From NCBI GenBank assembly GCA_021796215.1, contig JAJYOK010000017.1, positions 1-64,000 on the forward strand: DNA of 64,000 nucleotides, read 5' to 3'. The position numbers were made by a program, and so were the translations under genes. Of this stretch, positions 30,415-38,986 are shown in pieces. Below the pieces are notes generated by a model. The model saw nothing but the letters and a program-made list of their open reading frames with translations, was not told the DNA's origin and ran no database searches. Origin of the DNA: Bacteroidota bacterium (GTDB lineage: Bacteria > Bacteroidota > Ignavibacteria > UBA10030 > UBA8401). The number at the start of each line of letters is the position of its first letter. Within the stretch, counting starts at the first letter, position 1.

Positions 30415-31491
30415 ATGAGATCAATTTTCACGCGCAGAGATTTTTTGAGAACCACAGCCGCAGTTGGAGTTGGTTCAACATTTTTGCCTTTTTCGGGTTA
30501 CGGGAAATCTACTACAACTTCATCGAGATATATGAAAGGCTTGGTCGTTGCGAGTGCGAACGGACTCCGGGCAGCACAGAAAGCCATGGAAATTATTCAG
30601 AACGGCGCAGATGCGCTAGACGGAGTTATTGCCGGTGTCAATATTCTTGAAGACGACCCCGATGACATGACAATTGGATTAGGCGGATTACCGAACGCCG
30701 ACGGTGTTGTCGAATTGGATGCATCTGTCATGCACGGACCGACGCATCGCGCCGGCGCGGTCGGTGCGCTTCAAAATATTAAAAACCCCTCCATCGTTGC
30801 GCGCTATGTGATGGAACGAACCGATCACGTTCTTCTTGTGGCAGAAGGCGCTTTAAAGTTTGCAAAAATGCATGGCTTCAAAGAAGAAAATCTTCTTACT
30901 GAGAAAGCGCGTAAAGAATGGGTGAAGTGGAAAGAAAGTCTGAGCAGCCAAGATGATTATTTGCCTCCGCATTCAATTAATGATAAAGTTGTCTTGGGAA
31001 ATTCAAACGATGTTATGCACACATACGGCACTATTAATTGTTTAGGAATAGACCTTCATGGCGGCATTTCCGGCGTGACCACAACGAGCGGCATGGCATA
31101 CAAAGTGCCCGGACGCGTCGGCGATTCACCAATTATCGGCGCGGGCTTGTTTGTCGATAACGAAGTTGGCGCCGCCGGTTCAACAGGAAGGGGAGAAGCG
31201 AATCTTTTGAATTGCAGCTCGGTGATGGTTGTAGAATATATGCGGCAAGGAAAGAATCCAACCGAAGCGTGTTTAATGGCATGTCAGCGTATCGTTGACC
31301 ATAACAAGGAGCGGCGGTTGCAAGATGATCGCGGACGGCCGAATTTTGATGTGAAGTTCTATGCACTTAATAAAAATGGAGAATACGGCAGCGGATCTAT
31401 TTGGAGTTCAGGTGCAAAGTTCGTCGTTCACGATGGCAAAACAAATGAGACTCATTATGCTTCTTATCTTTTCAAATCGGAAACAAAATGA
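30415..31491 (+). CDS. Tat-exported glycosylasparaginase (Ntn hydrolase)
   Basis: A 358-residue precursor of N4-(beta-N-acetylglucosaminyl)-L-asparaginase type. Residues 1-32 carry a twin-arginine signal (TRRDFLRTTAAVG). The mature part has the family's GADALDGVIAG and DPDDMTIGLGG. The predicted autocleavage site is before the Thr of YGTINCLGID near residue 203, which then acts as N-terminal nucleophile. It would remove the sugar-Asn link of glycoproteins in the periplasm. The start follows AGAGGAA. The stop overlaps the TonB-domain gene (ATGATG). Confidence 0.9.
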   Translation: MRSIFTRRDFLRTTAAVGVGSTFLPFSGYGKSTTTSSRYMKGLVVASANGLRAAQKAMEIIQNGADALDGVIAGVNILEDDPDDMTIGLGGLPNADGVVELDASVMHGPTHRAGAVGALQNIKNPSIVARYVMERTDHVLLVAEGALKFAKMHGFKEENLLTEKARKEWVKWKESLSSQDDYLPPHSINDKVVLGNSNDVMHTYGTINCLGIDLHGGISGVTTTSGMAYKVPGRVGDSPIIGAGLFVDNEVGAAGSTGRGEANLLNCSSVMVVEYMRQGKNPTEACLMACQRIVDHNKERRLQDDRGRPNFDVKFYALNKNGEYGSGSIWSSGAKFVVHDGKTNETHYASYLFKSETK

Positions 31492-32258
31492 TGCGGCATC
31501 CACTGCACACATATTTTGCGCTGCTGCTTGTTTTATTTTTACTTTCCACCGGATTTCAACAATCCACCCAACACAGGCCAAGCGAAAAGGATTATCATGA
31601 TTTGTTTATTCCGCTGAAAGGAAAACCATTCCACGGAAAGATTCTTCGCATTGAAGGAAAACAAATTTATACTGAAGTTTTAAAGCGGGGTGTTCCAATC
31701 GTCATTACACAAAATGTTGATTCACTACTTGAAGTGAAACGAGACTACGGTGCAATTCAAATTTCCATTTGGAGGCAAATAAAAAAGGCCGAACAATCTC
31801 CAAAAACAGATGAACATGCTGCAATCAAGCTGGCAGAGAATTATGGTACTACAGTGAAAGGCGATACAACGCTGATTAAACAATATGAAAAAGATTCGCT
31901 TGATGTGGGGTTCATTAACAAGGATGATTCAACACATAAAGTAACTTTTTCTTCGGGTGAAGTTCAGGGAGAAAAACCACCTGCTCTTTCCCAACGGCCG
32001 ATACCGTTGATTCAGGCACCGGTAAATCTTCCACACTACATGATTGAAAATCCGATGACGGGCGTTGTTGATGTTCGTGTGTGGATTAATAGCGAAGGGA
32101 AACCGGAAAAATTTGAAATTCTCAGCGCCACAAGCCAAGCATTTGTTGAACCGGTCTCCGAATCAATTATGCAATGGGAATTTTCGCCTGCTCAGATTAA
32201 TGGCGTGCCGATTGGCGTGTGGGCTTCGGTAGAATTTGAATTTCGTGTCGGACAATAG
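31488..32258 (+). CDS. TonB C-terminal domain protein
   Basis: A 256-residue exported or N-anchored protein. Residues 5-22 are hydrophobic (signal or anchor). The middle 130 residues are unrecognised and polar. Residues about 170-256 form a TonB-like domain with TGVVDVRVWINSEGKPEKFEIL and QWEFSPAQINGVPIGVW. TonB domains contact outer-membrane receptors or take part in periplasmic assemblies; no ExbBD lies beside it. It overlaps the glycosylasparaginase by four bases. Confidence 0.82.
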   Translation: MMRHPLHTYFALLLVLFLLSTGFQQSTQHRPSEKDYHDLFIPLKGKPFHGKILRIEGKQIYTEVLKRGVPIVITQNVDSLLEVKRDYGAIQISIWRQIKKAEQSPKTDEHAAIKLAENYGTTVKGDTTLIKQYEKDSLDVGFINKDDSTHKVTFSSGEVQGEKPPALSQRPIPLIQAPVNLPHYMIENPMTGVVDVRVWINSEGKPEKFEILSATSQAFVEPVSESIMQWEFSPAQINGVPIGVWASVEFEFRVGQ

Positions 32259-32786: not shown

Positions 32787-33290
32787 TTAGAGTAAAAACG
32801 AATAGGAGAGAAGCAAAGATTCTAACCCCGGATTTGTTTTCGAAAGCGAACCGTTCGAGAAATGATATATACCGACACCAATGTACGAATGGTTTGCCAG
32901 TTCGTATGTAATTTCAAGGTCAGAGCAAAATTCCATAGCATATCCAAGCTCTGTTCCGTTTCCGTGCTTATAGATGCCCCCGCCAATACTGGGAAGTAAT
33001 ACAAAATTTCCAGACAAACTTACCGGTATTCCGGCTCCAACGCTTGCATACAAATCACGGGTGCCGGTTGTCAAGATACCAGCCATAGGGCGGATGATGC
33101 TCAATTTCGTTGGAAGAAAAATTTCCACTTGTAATTCTGATGTTACACTTGGTCGGCGAAAATCGTACAGTCCGGCGCCAATTTGGATGATAGTAGAATT
33201 TTGGTGAATTATGGTTTGTCCTTGCAAAGGCTCAAAGATAATAGCAATGGTGCTCAAAGATATAATCCAGTGTAAACATTTACACATCAT
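32787..33290 (-). CDS. PagL-like lipid A 3-O-deacylase
   Basis: A 167-residue outer-membrane barrel precursor with a signal peptide (about 1-25). The C-terminal half carries the PagL active-site pattern: H143 and S145 in YHFSNGS and E157 in NPGLE, a His-to-Glu distance of 14, as in the characterised enzyme (His126, Ser128, Glu140). PagL removes the 3-position acyl chain of lipid A and so alters surface charge and immune recognition. Final residues are aromatic/aliphatic, as usual for a barrel end (LLLSYSFLL). The start follows AAGGATAG. It converges on the tRNA-Leu unit and diverges from the motor-like cluster. Confidence 0.8.
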   Translation of the reverse strand: MMCKCLHWIISLSTIAIIFEPLQGQTIIHQNSTIIQIGAGLYDFRRPSVTSELQVEIFLPTKLSIIRPMAGILTTGTRDLYASVGAGIPVSLSGNFVLLPSIGGGIYKHGNGTELGYAMEFCSDLEITYELANHSYIGVGIYHFSNGSLSKTNPGLESLLLSYSFLL

Positions 33291-33666
33291 CTCTATCCTT
33301 CTGTGATTCTACCTACCAGCTATTTAATTTTTAGGCTTTTTTCTGACCAAAAAATAGGCTAAATGTCACAATATACATAAAATCTTTAATCTGGCAAGTG
33401 GTACCTGTTTCATTCACTTTTTTTGATGAATTTGACCACACATTTCATTGAAGTTAGACGATTTTCTATTGATTTACGTCTGACTTTGGCTTTTTTTCTT
33501 GACAAAACTAAAAATTCTGTTATATTACTGCCAATTAACAATGCGCTTACAAGGAAAGTCTAAATTGTTTGCGGTAATTTCATAACCAGTAGTCAGAATT
33601 TGCCCGGGGGATTGTAATATGAAGAACACCAAATAAACTATTCGATTCACCACGCAGACAAACATC
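33291..33666. other. Divergent intergenic region before the motor-like cluster
   Basis: These 376 bases are AT-rich, with no gene recognised. They separate pagL-like (minus) from the five-gene cluster (plus) and hold a promoter-like site at 33499-33530. The remaining about 135 bases before the first start codon would be a long untranslated leader. Confidence 0.6.
33499..33530 (+). promoter_or_regulatory. Candidate promoter of the MotAB/FliFG cluster
   Basis: Two readings overlap: TTGACA (33499) and TATATT (33521) with a 16-base spacer, a sigma-70-like site; or TTG (33500), 20 bases, TATTACTG (33523), matching four of six fixed positions of TAnnTTTG. Either would transcribe all five genes to the terminator at 38946. 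Confidence 0.45.
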
Positions 33667-34806
33667 ATGTACGAATGGACGAAGGTTGCTACACGGTCGT
33701 TTCTTTTTTACACATTATTATTTCTTATTGCCGCACCTCTTTATAGTCAGCCGGCAACAACTATTTCACCGAAACAATCTACGCCGATACATCCGGCAAA
33801 TTCCACTCCTTCACTTGACAACTCGACACTGATTTCGATCTTTCCGCTGTTTGATTCAGCCGTTGATTCATTAATAACACAAATGAGCGGAATAGAACGC
33901 GAGGTAACGCCGAACATCCGGACATTACTTATTTACAAGGTTAAAGTGCATTGGCCGTTTAAGGAGCAACTCACGTACGCTGAACTGCAATTTCTCGACA
34001 GTTATTTTGAACAGCGATTACAAAATGCTCTTACGGACAGCCGCCGGTTTGCCGTCTTCTCGTCTCAGGATTTGAAAACATTATCGTTCAAAGCAACTGA
34101 CAGCACGCTGCAAGTAAAGAACACATACACTGAAGATGAACTTCGCCAGTATGCACATCAACGAAATATAGATGGCATTGTGAATGCCGACATTCTTATT
34201 TCTCCAAACAAGATCTTAATGTTTGTTAACGTCAACGATCTTAGCGGCATCACTGTTTGGAGCAAGGAGATGACTGCAGCATATCGCCTTCTGCCTATGG
34301 ATGCAACAAAAGAACTGGAACGTGAATACGAATTGCGGAGGAAAACCGGTCTCATTGAAAATTATCTTTCTATAGGATTTCAAATTGCGACCACGTACCA
34401 GTTAGGAGTGAAGGACACAACGGGTTCGTATGGTTATTATTCTCTAGGGTATCGCCTAAATGAAATGGCAACCATCTTAAATTTTCTGAAATTTTACATT
34501 GACGGACGATTAATAGGAACCTCAAAATTAGGATTGATGGGGCTTATTGTCCAACCGGGATTTTCATTTGAACTGATTGGCAGCGACGCGATAGGTCCAG
34601 GACTTCTTATGCTCGATGCCTCAGGCGGATTCGATATTTCATTCAAGAACGGAGTAGCTGAAACGTACGGCGGCGGGTTGTCACTTCGCTTAAGCCGGAA
34701 TATTGGCATTTCAGGAATTTACAATTACGTCGTCATCAAAAACAGCTTTGATAAATTTGATATTGGCGGACCAGTTTATGGTTTGCAGGTCAATTTTGTT
34801 CTCTAA
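33667..34806 (+). CDS. Exported protein, probable outer-membrane barrel, motor-like cluster gene 1
   Basis: A 379-residue precursor with a signal peptide (about residues 1-28, ending near PLYSQ). Residues 80-215 look like a mixed alpha/beta domain; one stretch (TLLIYKVKV, then SYFEQRLQNALTDSRRFAVFS) weakly recalls CsgG/FlgO-type periplasmic domains. Residues 235-379 alternate short amphipathic strands and glycine-rich turns and end NFVL, as an outer-membrane barrel would. It opens the MotA/MotB/FliFG cluster and could anchor it to the outer membrane, by inference. No clear ribosome site precedes ATG 33667. Confidence 0.72.
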   Translation: MYEWTKVATRSFLFYTLLFLIAAPLYSQPATTISPKQSTPIHPANSTPSLDNSTLISIFPLFDSAVDSLITQMSGIEREVTPNIRTLLIYKVKVHWPFKEQLTYAELQFLDSYFEQRLQNALTDSRRFAVFSSQDLKTLSFKATDSTLQVKNTYTEDELRQYAHQRNIDGIVNADILISPNKILMFVNVNDLSGITVWSKEMTAAYRLLPMDATKELEREYELRRKTGLIENYLSIGFQIATTYQLGVKDTTGSYGYYSLGYRLNEMATILNFLKFYIDGRLIGTSKLGLMGLIVQPGFSFELIGSDAIGPGLLMLDASGGFDISFKNGVAETYGGGLSLRLSRNIGISGIYNYVVIKNSFDKFDIGGPVYGLQVNFVL

Positions 34807-34831
34807 GACCGGAACAAAAGAAGGTGATATT

Positions 34832-35545
34832 ATGAAATATCTGTTATTTGTTTTCTTGTTTTGCTTTGCAACAAGCAGCTATGCACAAGTGCCCGCTAAC
34901 AATCCAGCACAAGATTCACTTCAAGGACAACAAAATACGCCGCAGCAAAATGTCGCAATACATTCGGCACCAGCAACCGTGAAGCTGAATACTCCTACGC
35001 TAAACATGGATGTACTGCTTGACTTGTATAACCGCGACATTGACTTTTCTATTGATTACTCAGGAACAGCATTTCGGCCGCCAGCAAATGCTTCCCAAGT
35101 CTCATCTCCATCACAACAAGATCAATCGGGGAAACCCGGACAACAGGAAAAGCGCCAACAACAGGCGCAACAAGTTACCGACCAGCTTCTGAAGCCGCAT
35201 GAAGAAGATATTACTTCAGATATTCAGGACATTGTTGATACCTCAAAAGTTAAGCGGCAACAACGTACGGGCAGTTACACAAAAGAAGACGCAGATTACA
35301 ATCGCGCATTATTCAGCTTGCAGGAAGCACAGCGGCTCTTTTCATTGAAACGGTACACACAAGCTTTGGTGGAAATTAACAAATCCATTGATGCAGCACC
35401 TAATCTGGCGTTAGCGCATGCGATTAAAGGCTCGGTGTATTATATGCTGCAAAATATGAACCAAGCAAAGATCAGCTGGGAGAAAGCGTTGGAACTCGAT
35501 CCCTCAATGGATAATGTGCGCGCAATTTTGTATAGACTTTATTAA
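34832..35545 (+). CDS. Exported TPR protein, motor-like cluster gene 2
   Basis: A 237-residue precursor. Residues 1-19 are a clean signal peptide (LLFVFLFCFATSSYA). Residues 20-120 are Gln/Pro-rich and low in complexity. Residues about 160-237 hold two to three TPR-like helix pairs (YNRALFSLQEAQRLFSLKRY, LALAHAIKGSVYYMLQNMNQ). The start is fixed by AAGGTGAT before ATG 34832. Periplasmic TPR proteins usually scaffold envelope complexes; here the partners are likely the neighbouring stator and barrel proteins. Confidence 0.75.
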   Translation: MKYLLFVFLFCFATSSYAQVPANNPAQDSLQGQQNTPQQNVAIHSAPATVKLNTPTLNMDVLLDLYNRDIDFSIDYSGTAFRPPANASQVSSPSQQDQSGKPGQQEKRQQQAQQVTDQLLKPHEEDITSDIQDIVDTSKVKRQQRTGSYTKEDADYNRALFSLQEAQRLFSLKRYTQALVEINKSIDAAPNLALAHAIKGSVYYMLQNMNQAKISWEKALELDPSMDNVRAILYRLY

Positions 35546-35565
35546 TCTTTAACGGAGAAAAGTTC

Positions 35566-36411
35566 ATGAATTCGACCGTCCTGGGATATGTTTTATTTGT
35601 GATTGCGGCGTACGTGCTTCTTATTCTTGGCACCGACGTTGCCACTGTAGATGCACTACAAAAACAGTTTGTGCCCGATAACCTAACTCACTATATTCAT
35701 ATTCCCGGTGTTATTTTCGTGTTTCTTGGTGTTACGGCTTCTGTACTCATTAGCTATAATTTCACTGAAATTTGGAAGGCGACGCGATCATTGTATCTTG
35801 TCTATTTCCGAAATAAAATTAATTTCAGTTGGTACCTCGATGCCATTACAAACATTGCGCAGTACACCAACACACATGACGTCGAATCACTCGAAGAATA
35901 TGCCAATCAAATCAAATATCCATTCATGCGCGATGGGTTGCTGATGCTTGTCAATGGATATAAAAAGGAAGAAATTCGTGATGTGCTCCAAGTGAGAATT
36001 GAAAACGAATCTTTTCATGACCAAATCGAGGACGATGTTTTCCGTTCCGCTGCTGCATATTCTCCAGGATATGGCATGTTAGGAACGACAGTCGGTTTAA
36101 TTCAAATGTTCTCAACAAAAATTGACGCAGCTGCGGGATTCGCTCCCATTCTCACTGGCTTGGCTGTTGCGTTTACAACAACATTGTATGGTTTGTTCTT
36201 ATCGAATTTTATTTTCCAGCCTTTTTCCGACAAGATTGAACGCCGGACGGAAGTAGAGGTCTTATTGAAAACAATGATTATGGATGGCTTATGTTTGATC
36301 AGCGAGAAGAAACATCCGATCTATATCCAAGATAAGCTTGCCACTTACATTCATCAGAGTAGAACGCTTGGCGTCCCGAAAATTGCACAGCTTTCTGTTG
36401 AAGGAGCATAA
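35566..36411 (+). CDS. motA: MotA-type stator protein
   Basis: A 281-residue inner-membrane protein matching MotA/PomA rather than TolQ/ExbB. Two N-terminal helices (about 4-24 and 47-66) are followed by a cytoplasmic region with the MotA pattern YPFMRDGLLMLVNGY. Then come SPGYGMLGTTVGLIQMF (helix 3, with the conserved Pro) and GLAVAFTTTLYGLFLSNFIFQP (helix 4). With MotB it should form an ion channel that turns a rotor. ATG 35566 follows GGAGAAA. It sits 20 bases after the TPR gene and six before motB. Confidence 0.9.
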   Translation: MNSTVLGYVLFVIAAYVLLILGTDVATVDALQKQFVPDNLTHYIHIPGVIFVFLGVTASVLISYNFTEIWKATRSLYLVYFRNKINFSWYLDAITNIAQYTNTHDVESLEEYANQIKYPFMRDGLLMLVNGYKKEEIRDVLQVRIENESFHDQIEDDVFRSAAAYSPGYGMLGTTVGLIQMFSTKIDAAAGFAPILTGLAVAFTTTLYGLFLSNFIFQPFSDKIERRTEVEVLLKTMIMDGLCLISEKKHPIYIQDKLATYIHQSRTLGVPKIAQLSVEGA

Positions 36412-36417
36412 CGCCTA

Positions 36418-37083
36418 ATGTACAGCGTGCCACGCAAAGTCCAAGAAAAACATTGGCAAGTTAGCTACATTGATTTGCTGACAGCAATGCTTGCTGCCTT
36501 CACGTTGCTCTTGGCGTTGTCCGTCCCGGATCAATCCAAGCTGGACAGTTTAGCTTCTTCAGTATCAGACGCTGCAAAAAAGCAACAGAACCTTGGTACA
36601 TTGTCAAAAGATTTGAAGCAAGTCATTGATAACAACGCGGCATTGAAAGGGCAGGTAAGCGTTGTGATGACAGACCAAGGTATTGAACTCAGGTTCGGGA
36701 GTAATTTGCTGTTTCCTCCCGGCCAGGCGAGACTAAGTCCGGGAGGATATGATGCAATTTTCAGTGTCGGCAGGATCCTTGGATATTTCGTAAAAGCGCG
36801 TGACGCTTACATTGCCGTTGAAGGGCACACTGATGATACACCTCTGCGGGCGAATGCAGAATTCAAATCTAATTGGGAACTCTCATCGTCTCGCGCACTG
36901 GAAGTGCTTCATTACTTGCAGGATACTGTTCAGATTGAAGGAAAGCGGCTTTCAGCGACCGGCTATGGCGATGCGCGCCCGCAAAACAAACAACGCGATC
37001 CTGTAACAGGACAATTCACAGAACAAGCACGCAACGATAACCGCCGAGTTGTTATACGAATTTATTATCACAGTCAGGTTTAA
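36418..37083 (+). CDS. motB: MotB-type stator protein with OmpA-like domain
   Basis: A 221-residue protein. One N-terminal helix follows W13 and reads SYIDLLTAMLAAF; D19 lies where MotB has its essential ion-binding Asp (D32 in E. coli). Residues about 45-95 would be the plug/linker. The OmpA-like peptidoglycan-binding domain covers 100-221, with VEGHTDDTPL, NWELSSSRA and NDNRRVVIRI. It is shorter than E. coli MotB (308), mainly in the linker and tail. The cytoplasmic N-terminus is very short. With MotA it should form a cell-wall-anchored stator. Confidence 0.9.
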   Translation: MYSVPRKVQEKHWQVSYIDLLTAMLAAFTLLLALSVPDQSKLDSLASSVSDAAKKQQNLGTLSKDLKQVIDNNAALKGQVSVVMTDQGIELRFGSNLLFPPGQARLSPGGYDAIFSVGRILGYFVKARDAYIAVEGHTDDTPLRANAEFKSNWELSSSRALEVLHYLQDTVQIEGKRLSATGYGDARPQNKQRDPVTGQFTEQARNDNRRVVIRIYYHSQV

Positions 37084-37124
37084 TTGCAATGAATTTTCTT
37101 TCCAAAAAATTTAACGAGGAAAGT

Positions 37125-38927
37125 ATGAAATCTCGCGTTACAGGTTTTCTGATGGCGCTGATATTTTTCCAGGCGTCGTTCTTCAGCAGCGGACTTGAGC
37201 TTGAAAAGAAGAAAATGGAAAGGGACCTCGAAGACCGGATTACAAACGAGATTCAGCGCTATTTTCCGGATTTAAATTTTCTTGTTACTGCAGAAGTAAC
37301 ACTGGTTGATCTTACGCCCGCGAAACCCACAACCGATCAGCGCGACCTGATGCTGCCGGGAGTTTCCGGATTTCAAGCGGAAAATCCACAAGCTCAAACT
37401 TCCACGCAACCACAATACGGTGTTGAATCTATAGTTGTAAGAATGCTGATAGACAAAAACCGCAGTCAGGAAGACAAAGACCTGCTGCAAAATATTGCAT
37501 TTTATACCGGACGATTAAACAAAGTCCGGGGCGACCGTGTTGATATCCAAGAAATGACTTTCCCTCCAAACGCCCTTCAGGTTCAGCGCGAACAACTGAA
37601 AGCTGACCAAGATAAACGTATCCAGGAATTAGAAAAACAAAAACAGGATGCCGAAGACAAGGCAAAGCAGCAGCCTCTGCAACAAGAATCATTTCTGAAT
37701 CCAACAACAATTATTCTGCTTGGACTTGGCATTTTGATTCTTATTCTTCTCATTACTCTTTTAATGCGGGGAAGAAACCGCCAGCAAATGGAGCTTGCAA
37801 CTCAATCTGTCAACGACGGACTTGCACAACAGCCTTTATTGAATGCCGCAGACAATACTGCGACTCAGACTTCGTCTGAAGAAATGCAGGCGTTTACGGA
37901 CGGACTTGAAGTTGCAAAGGTCCGCTCGACACTGGTGGCGACGTGTGCCGGCGAATCAGAATTGACCGCGAGCGTTATTCGCGACATGGTTGCCGACCAA
38001 GCTCAAAAAGAAAACTTGTCGGTCATTATTTCACAGTTAGGCAATAGTGTGCTGCAAGTAATGCGCGATTACTTCTCGCTTGAAGAAATAAAGCTGTTGC
38101 AGGAATACACGATGCTGAAACCAGAAAAGAGCGCTTCCGAAATAAAAGAGGCTCTTATGTATTTTCAGAATCAGCTTACCATCAAACGTTTTTCCGATGC
38201 CAGGCATTCGAAAAAGAACCCGTTTGCTTTTCTTGAAAGACTTTCCGAACCCCAGCTTTATTTATTGATGAAGGATGAACCGCCAGGCATCATTGCAATT
38301 ATCCTTTCACAACTAACAACGCCTGTGGCTTCTTCGATGTTGAAAAGCTTGCCGTCAATGCAGCAGGGCGAAGTTGCGCTTGAGCTTGGTAAGTTACGCC
38401 GTTTGACCTCCGACACGTATGTTTCCGTTGCAAAACAACTTGCTGCAAAGGCTGCAACAATTCCTGTGATCAATAATGTTCAGGTGCAGGGGACGGACCT
38501 TCTTCTTGACATTTTCGATAATTTGGATGAAACAAGTGAAAACTCAATTATCGAATTCATCAAAGTTGTGAACCTTGATTTGTTCCGCGAAATTACAGGC
38601 CAGCGAGTTTCATTCAACGCGATCGCTCAACTAGACGACCGAATGCTGCGGCAGTTAGTCAAAGACATCTCGGGAGATGAAATTGCCATCGCATTGAAGA
38701 ACGCTCCGCCGGAAACGAGCGAACGCATTCTTTCTGTTTTGCCATCAAAGGCACGACAAATTCTGGAAGATCGAATGGCTTCCATGCGAACAGTTTCACC
38801 TGATGATGAACTGAAAGCGCGCAGACGAATTACGCGTATGATTCGCCAATACCTTAAAAACGGCGGCGCCGCATTGTCAACACAGGAGGAACTTGGAGCG
38901 GCGGAGACTACAGAACAGCAAGCATAA
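37125..38927 (+). CDS. FliF-FliG fused rotor-like protein
   Basis: A 600-residue protein. An N-terminal membrane or signal helix (about 1-22) is followed by a periplasmic region of about 150 residues resembling the third ring domain of FliF (IVVRMLIDK, then VRGDRVDIQEMTFP). A charged coiled segment and a strong helix (LGILILILLITLL, about 192-212) follow. The rest matches FliG middle and C-terminal domains: FAFLERLSEPQLYLLMKDEP, IIAIILSQL, and the torque region LDDRMLRQLVKD then IAIALKNAP. FliG's N-terminal FliF-binding domain is not recognisable, as a fusion would allow. I chose ATG 37125 after GAGGAAAG; ATG 37089 adds 12 residues. The gene ends the MotAB cluster. Confidence 0.82.
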   Translation: MKSRVTGFLMALIFFQASFFSSGLELEKKKMERDLEDRITNEIQRYFPDLNFLVTAEVTLVDLTPAKPTTDQRDLMLPGVSGFQAENPQAQTSTQPQYGVESIVVRMLIDKNRSQEDKDLLQNIAFYTGRLNKVRGDRVDIQEMTFPPNALQVQREQLKADQDKRIQELEKQKQDAEDKAKQQPLQQESFLNPTTIILLGLGILILILLITLLMRGRNRQQMELATQSVNDGLAQQPLLNAADNTATQTSSEEMQAFTDGLEVAKVRSTLVATCAGESELTASVIRDMVADQAQKENLSVIISQLGNSVLQVMRDYFSLEEIKLLQEYTMLKPEKSASEIKEALMYFQNQLTIKRFSDARHSKKNPFAFLERLSEPQLYLLMKDEPPGIIAIILSQLTTPVASSMLKSLPSMQQGEVALELGKLRRLTSDTYVSVAKQLAAKAATIPVINNVQVQGTDLLLDIFDNLDETSENSIIEFIKVVNLDLFREITGQRVSFNAIAQLDDRMLRQLVKDISGDEIAIALKNAPPETSERILSVLPSKARQILEDRMASMRTVSPDDELKARRRITRMIRQYLKNGGAALSTQEELGAAETTEQQA

Positions 38928-38945: not shown

Positions 38946-38986
38946 AAAGCATCCCGTCATACTGTCGGTATGGCGAGATGCTTTTT
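38946..38986 (+). terminator. Terminator of the motor-like cluster
   Basis: The stem AAAGCATC / GATGCTTT extended by CG-CG and CAT-ATG pairs, followed by a T tract. It closes the five-gene unit. Confidence 0.85.

Follow-up and report, generated by a model that had tools for sequence, protein, structure and literature searches.

We analysed 64,000 nucleotides from a Bacteroidota bacterium (GenBank assembly GCA_021796215.1, contig JAJYOK010000017.1, positions 1 to 64,000 of the forward strand; this whole stretch is called the window below), in which the region 33667-38927 carries the genes of a flagellar-type stator, MotA and MotB, together with a protein that joins parts of FliF and FliG in one chain. 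Five genes lie there in tandem, all on the + strand and separated by gaps of only 25, 20, 6 and 5 bases. The features of this operon are as follows.

33667..34806, + strand: gene 1, exported protein with a periplasmic domain and an outer-membrane barrel
34832..35545, + strand: gene 2, exported periplasmic protein with C-terminal TPR
35566..36411, + strand: gene 3, MotA, with four hydrophobic segments and a flagellar-type cytoplasmic domain
36418..37083, + strand: gene 4, MotB, with a plug and an OmpA-like peptidoglycan-binding domain
36472..36474, + strand: codon of Asp19, the ion-binding residue of MotB (SYIDLLTA), from the sequence
37125..38927, + strand: gene 5, fusion of FliF(RBM3), a transmembrane helix and FliG (the listed open reading frame begins at 37089)
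37185..37565, + strand: RBM3-like domain of the fusion, with an insert containing LPG (LPGV in the window)
37692..37766, + strand: the fusion's one transmembrane helix, with MRGRNR after it, from the sequence
37875..38207, + strand: FliG_N-like helical region, from the alignment with 8wiw, starting at residue 292
38217..38459, + strand: FliG middle domain, from profile match and fold
38277..38288, + strand: EPPG at the position of the FliM-binding EHPQ motif
38604..38876, + strand: FliG C-terminal (torque) domain, from profile match and fold

The MotA encoded by gene 3 is of the flagellar type and not of the ExbB/TolQ type: among NCBIfam models it matches MotP at 1.9e-39 and TolQ at 0.019, and among solved structures it retrieves MotA/PomA chains (4e-27 to 1e-12) and no ExbB/TolQ. 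The product of gene 4 matches MotB_plug (1e-8) and OmpA (3e-15), and its Asp19 sits in the transmembrane helix, an Asp that is also conserved in two other forms of the operon (A and B, described below).

In gene 5 the likelier start is the ATG at 37125, which has GAGGA directly 5' and at which the orthologues begin; with this start the N-terminus is a signal peptide, followed in order by one RBM3-like domain, one transmembrane helix and FliG. The FliG portion matches FliG_M (2e-16) and FliG_C (4e-18), both over the cut-off, and TIGR00207 fliG (2e-27) along fliG positions 40-329. The FliF portion is weak by sequence (YscJ_FliF_C, E-value 0.058), and in profile-profile comparison with the FliF of relatives the fusion gives a short, weak match (RGDRV..MSFP / RNDEISVVNLxF, E-value 0.063), so the FliF assignment rests on the fold. 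In the predicted structure the RBM3-like domain compares with FliF RBM3 6sd1 at VIA Z 12.9 and a root mean square deviation of 2.2 Å over 99 residues, and FliF RBM3/collar structures reach Z 10.7-12.9 at about 2 Å versus about 8.7 for unrelated OsmC-type proteins; the presence of a FliF RBM3 domain in the fusion is clear by fold. The insert (residues 63-97) lies between the first two strands, as it does in FliF RBM3, and its LPG motif (window 37353-37373) is conserved at the corresponding place in nearly all fusions, L080 and L079 among others, reading LPGLP and more fully LPGLPxxP in forms A and B; it may be where the TPR protein makes contact. None of the fusions has the EHPQ motif, whereas of 25 flagellar FliGs sampled across the phylum 24 retain it and one reads EQPQ (row L059 of the set is not a FliG and is not counted); the loss of the motif in the fusions fits the lack of FliM.

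Gene 1 begins with a hydrophobic leader, and its model shows an alpha/beta domain at about residues 54-206 that resembles the periplasmic LpoB/TolB-N fold (LpoB 4q6z: VIA Z 10.9, 3.5 Å, 128 residues), followed at about residues 227-379 by a C-terminal 8-strand barrel that extends to the final residues (OmpW 8qxp: VIA Z 16.6, 2.5 Å, 130 residues). A FlgT_M match to gene 1 (E-value 0.036) stayed unconfirmed, the fold search giving LpoB/TolB-N instead, and the fold lists hold no secretin-like or bearing-like match, which is not evidence of absence. Gene 2 probably starts at the ATG at 34832, matches TPR_2 (E-value 1e-7), and is homologous to the C-terminal TPR of the motor-linked ushers discussed below. 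A first-pass annotation, made from the letters of the window alone, had named five co-directional genes for an exported barrel-like protein, an exported TPR protein, MotA, a MotB with Asp19 and an OmpA-like domain, and a FliF-FliG fusion. All five are borne out; for the fusion, which that annotation would have given up had structure comparison shown no FliG or FliF fold, both folds are present, and the description needs correcting in that FliF is reduced to RBM3 and one transmembrane helix, without RBM1/RBM2.

The genome to which the window belongs is reported as 100% complete, in an assembly of 44 contigs, and its single FliG is the fusion of gene 5. No match was found in it to FlhA, which was positive in the same run in 20 of 41 genomes (this genome and its relatives) and in four controls, to FliM/FliN (PF01052; controls positive) or to a separate or full-length FliF (PF08345; 19 of the 41 genomes positive). 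The operon could in principle be a piece displaced from an ordinary flagellum whose other genes lie elsewhere in the genome, as the homology of its MotA, MotB, FliF and FliG parts to flagellar counterparts might suggest. The first-pass annotation had itself named a full flagellar gene set without its own motA, motB, fliF and fliG as the refuting finding; the genome shows no FlhA, FliM/FliN, separate FliF or second FliG, which contradicts the displaced-flagellum reading for this assembly. The relatives argue against it as well. Fusions occur both in genomes without FlhA (this one, G001, G002, G009, G012 and G015) and in genomes where FlhA, FliF and a second, separate FliG stand beside the operon (G003, G004, G016, G017, G018 and G020), and the order gene 1-TPR-motA-motB-fusion is kept in relatives wherever the contig is long enough. 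Since the operon is present with or without a separate flagellum, it is no displaced, decaying or borrowed flagellar part, and we regard a displaced flagellum as very improbable.

Membership in an injectisome-like or other type III system is nearly as improbable. It could appeal to the natural FliF-FliG fusion of Chlamydiaceae, possibly acting with the injectisome (PMC4768692), but no FlhA/SctV-family export gate was found in the window's own genome, and the Chlamydia protein is described as having the FliG M region only and as belonging to a genome with FlhA (PMC4768692).

The fusion is not confined to the close relatives of this bacterium. With a broader profile, full-length fusions were found in 23 of 395 sampled genomes, and a fusion-profile search of the phylum retrieved fusions of 600-700 residues in families outside the class. 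FlhA is missing from 15 of 22 sampled genomes that bear a fusion and whose FlhA status is known. By their gene surroundings the loci fall into three forms, of which form W is that of the window. In form A the genes run fusion-barrel protein-TPR-MotA-MotB (L075, L076, L080, L082, L084, L085, L086 and L180); the barrel protein of this form is a homologue of gene 1 (hhalign 93.9%, E-value 1.5e-7, common motif DSTLQ-x-x-N), and the upstream neighbours of form A loci, checked for surface adhesins, vary from alpha-2-macroglobulin and PBP1C in one genome to sorting-tail proteins in another. Form B consists of small DUF4402 secreted proteins, a PapD-like chaperone and an usher-like outer-membrane protein, with fusion-TPR-MotA-MotB directly after it (L045, L077, L079, L081, L083 and eleven test loci; L078 leaves its contig). 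Nine sampled genomes hold two different full-length fusions, six of them (G092, G114, G160, G172, G223 and G324) with one A and one B locus each. Two fusion loci stand together with FlhA and a separate FliG in G084, G160 and G324 (types A and B in the latter two), giving up to three FliG-based systems per genome, and G016 combines form W, form B and flagellar genes. The form B locus of G016 (L045, 5183-12122) is a strongly diverged cluster within the window's own family.

In an unrooted tree of the FliG part, all fusions lie across a 100/99 branch from all flagellar FliGs, namely those of the phylum itself and of Thermotoga, Vibrio and Salmonella. In a MotA tree with an ExbB-like root, the first to branch off are forms A and B, and W joins flagellar MotA (96/91), an order with which the FliG tree is compatible. 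The branches are long, the root branch longest, and the claim is therefore limited to this: the fusions do not derive from the flagella of their current hosts. A wider proposal, that they form a separate class of rotary surface machines spinning outer-membrane barrels or usher pili, with some branches predating the flagellar motor, we consider doubtful; on that view the class could preserve an engine of rotor and stator that predates the flagellar export machine. A recent stator survey (PMC12505986) treats flagellar stators as one clade, and a search of it by terms brought up no mention of such operons.

A functionless vestige left after loss of a flagellum would agree with the varying presence of flagella among the relatives, which makes flagellum loss a frequent event in the group. 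Against the nearest congener, all five genes show nonsynonymous differences (pN) of 0.04-0.09 and synonymous differences (pS) of 0.6-0.8, the latter near saturation, and with pN far below pS in each gene all five are under purifying selection. This, the constant five-gene set, its presence in genomes that retain a flagellum, its recurrence in another class, the position of the fusions outside the flagellar FliG clade, and the fact that no disrupted copy was seen among the loci read leave the vestige with hardly any credibility.

By sequence, the naming of the form B outer-membrane protein as an usher is weak (PF00577 at E-value 3e-4 in one of six, a TcfC E-set at 0.094 in one of six); it also rests on the composition of the cluster, in which the chaperone matches PapD_N below the cut-off in three of six (best E-value 7e-4); the usher-like and chaperone-like profiles found no useful match among solved structures and no solved usher. 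Run on the genome of the window itself, the usher profile picks up nothing but the TPR of gene 2, through profile positions 869-976 (E-value 7e-10). The usher-like proteins are of two kinds, one matched to the end of the profile through a C-terminal TPR, the other stopping near position 880 and continuing into a different sequence. TPR-tailed ushers were predicted to adjoin the motor, and on 20 newly fetched usher clusters fusion-TPR-MotA-MotB lay directly downstream of 11 of 11 TPR-tailed ushers versus 0 of 9 others (Fisher p 6e-6, although the clusters come from related genomes and their effective number is smaller).

The nine ushers without a motor (L170-L178) all end in SPOR peptidoglycan-binding domains, and no SPOR domain was found in the motor-linked ushers tested. 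In family f33 it is MotB that carries SPOR, in 10 of 10 proteins scanned from motor clusters; SPOR-bearing MotB proteins occur in the motor-linked clusters L079, L081, L083 and L159-L169. Over a length of about 245 residues, the tail of the ushers and that of MotB are the same (blastp to 2e-24; hhalign 99.9%, E-value 3e-34), so clusters lacking a motor have this wall-binding tail on the usher and clusters with a motor have it on the stator. Exactly this relocation would be required if the usher is to move while the stator stays anchored. The form B loci outside f33 (L045 and L077) have an ordinary short MotB without a SPOR tail, which makes the tail swap a feature of one family. A second usher locus in G146 (L179, 6931-12649, row L059) has its usher split into two open reading frames and contains a TPR protein and an RBM3-only protein of 343 residues without FliG, and no MotAB; it seems to be a copy that lost its motor. 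Distant usher-like proteins of 750-1000 residues (families f27, f44 and f54) are found in many other genomes of the phylum.

From the gene content, the folds, the missing flagellar core genes, the conservation, the linkage rule and the tail relocation we infer, with a probability of about 0.72, that the product of the operon is an ion-driven rotary machine in the cell envelope, separate from any flagellum, that would turn or drag an outer-membrane structure. In the proposed mechanism, MotA/MotB units held to peptidoglycan by the OmpA-like domain of MotB would conduct ions, and MotA would push on the FliG C-terminal domain of the fusion, which may form a ring through RBM3 and turn. With FliG covalently joined to a reduced FliF ring, the FliM/FliN ring, export gate, rod and hook would not be needed. 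The TPR protein would link the ring, on its periplasmic side, with the outer-membrane partner and pass on torque, and the barrel protein of gene 1 would thereby be turned or dragged in the outer membrane; in form B the same core would drive a chaperone-usher-type outer-membrane protein in place of the barrel. The minimal envelope-spanning rotary motor with a probable non-flagellar use, as put forward in the first-pass annotation, is supported, and the usher-linked relatives add independent support to which that annotation had no access. As to its use for the cell, surface motility or attachment through a moving outer-membrane structure is our first choice, held tentatively and the least certain part of the proposal.

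Several points weigh against a rotary machine. The 8-strand barrel has no pore for a rod and so leaves no plain path for torque across the periplasm; ring formation by RBM3 alone is an assumption; the match of the fusion to FliF is weak by sequence; the usher evidence belongs to a sister form and not to that of the window; and the absence of FlhA, FliF and FliM/FliN comes from one assembly in 44 contigs, although the congeners agree. The same barrel, offering no obvious bearing, also suits a force transducer, in which a stator-ring assembly would pull or gate an outer-membrane protein, like Tol-Pal or TonB-ExbBD, without continuous rotation and in the service of transport, secretion or envelope stability; the TolB-N/LpoB-like domain of gene 1 and the secretion-type outer-membrane partner of type B point the same way. 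Tol/Ton systems, however, have no FliG or FliF, the MotA is of the flagellar type, and a wall-binding tail placed on the stator and off the usher suits an usher that moves relative to the wall. We consider the force transducer unlikely, though a more serious competitor than the displaced-flagellum, vestige or type III readings, and prefer the rotary machine.

The flanks of the operon hold two signals that the first-pass annotation had taken as its borders.

33499..33526, + strand: promoter-like site 5' of the operon, TTGACA-16-TATATT, 11/12 matches
38955..38975, + strand: terminator-like hairpin 3' of the operon

Both signals are there; promoter-like matches in the region, however, are no more frequent than chance predicts (7 observed versus 10.4 expected). 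Close upstream of the operon lie genes for a PagL-type lipid A deacylase (32787-33290, - strand) and a TonB C-terminal protein (30415-32258, + strand), the latter, with its preceding gene, also found upstream of the operon in G002 (L026).

If the rotary reading is true, torque from MotAB and FliG is passed to outer-membrane proteins with no flagellum, export gate, FliM/FliN ring or rod involved, which would add a type of ion-driven rotary machine and would predict surface activity in many bacteria of the phylum. A pre-flagellar role of the motor would become directly testable because non-flagellar relatives of rotor and stator would be in hand, and the usher form gives a pilus-type cluster that nature provides in two versions for comparison, one motor-bearing and one motor-less. 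In the open-access literature (no preprints, few subscription journals) we found neither the operon nor the usher link nor the fusion described for this phylum, a coverage so limited that novelty is not proven.

Among known systems, the flagellar motor shares with the operon MotA, a MotB with Asp, plug and OmpA domain, the RBM3 fold of FliF and the N-M-C build of FliG. The operon system differs from it in being without FlhA, FliM/FliN and FliF RBM1/2, in the loss of EHPQ, in the fusion of FliF with FliG, and in having an outer-membrane barrel or usher as its partner. Chaperone-usher pili resemble type B, where DUF4402 proteins, PapD-like chaperones and an usher-like protein stand upstream of the motor, whereas the window's form has no usher and the type B usher assignment is weak by sequence. 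We know of no motor for chaperone-usher pili. The Chlamydiaceae fusion, the one natural precedent found, likewise joins a shortened FliF with FliG sequence in non-flagellates, but it has the FliG M region only, keeps two RBMs and occurs together with FlhA and an injectisome, and MotAB is not among the Chlamydiaceae flagellar genes listed (PMC4768692). GldLM of type IX secretion and gliding is an ion-driven motor of the same phylum that acts on outer-membrane parts; it is described as similar to MotAB but not homologous (PMC13104615) and, unlike the operon, has no FliG/FliF, and the GldM profile TIGR03517 was silent in the window's own genome and equally silent in all controls. TolQR, ExbBD and AglRS belong to the same superfamily as MotAB and are put to non-flagellar use; these generic ion transporters are described as being without the flagellar torque interface and plug (PMC12505986), whereas the MotAB of the operon is matched by flagellar models and clusters on the flagellar side, away from ExbB. 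The parts are known ones, while the assembled machine fits no known kind and looks like a previously undescribed rotary surface machine.

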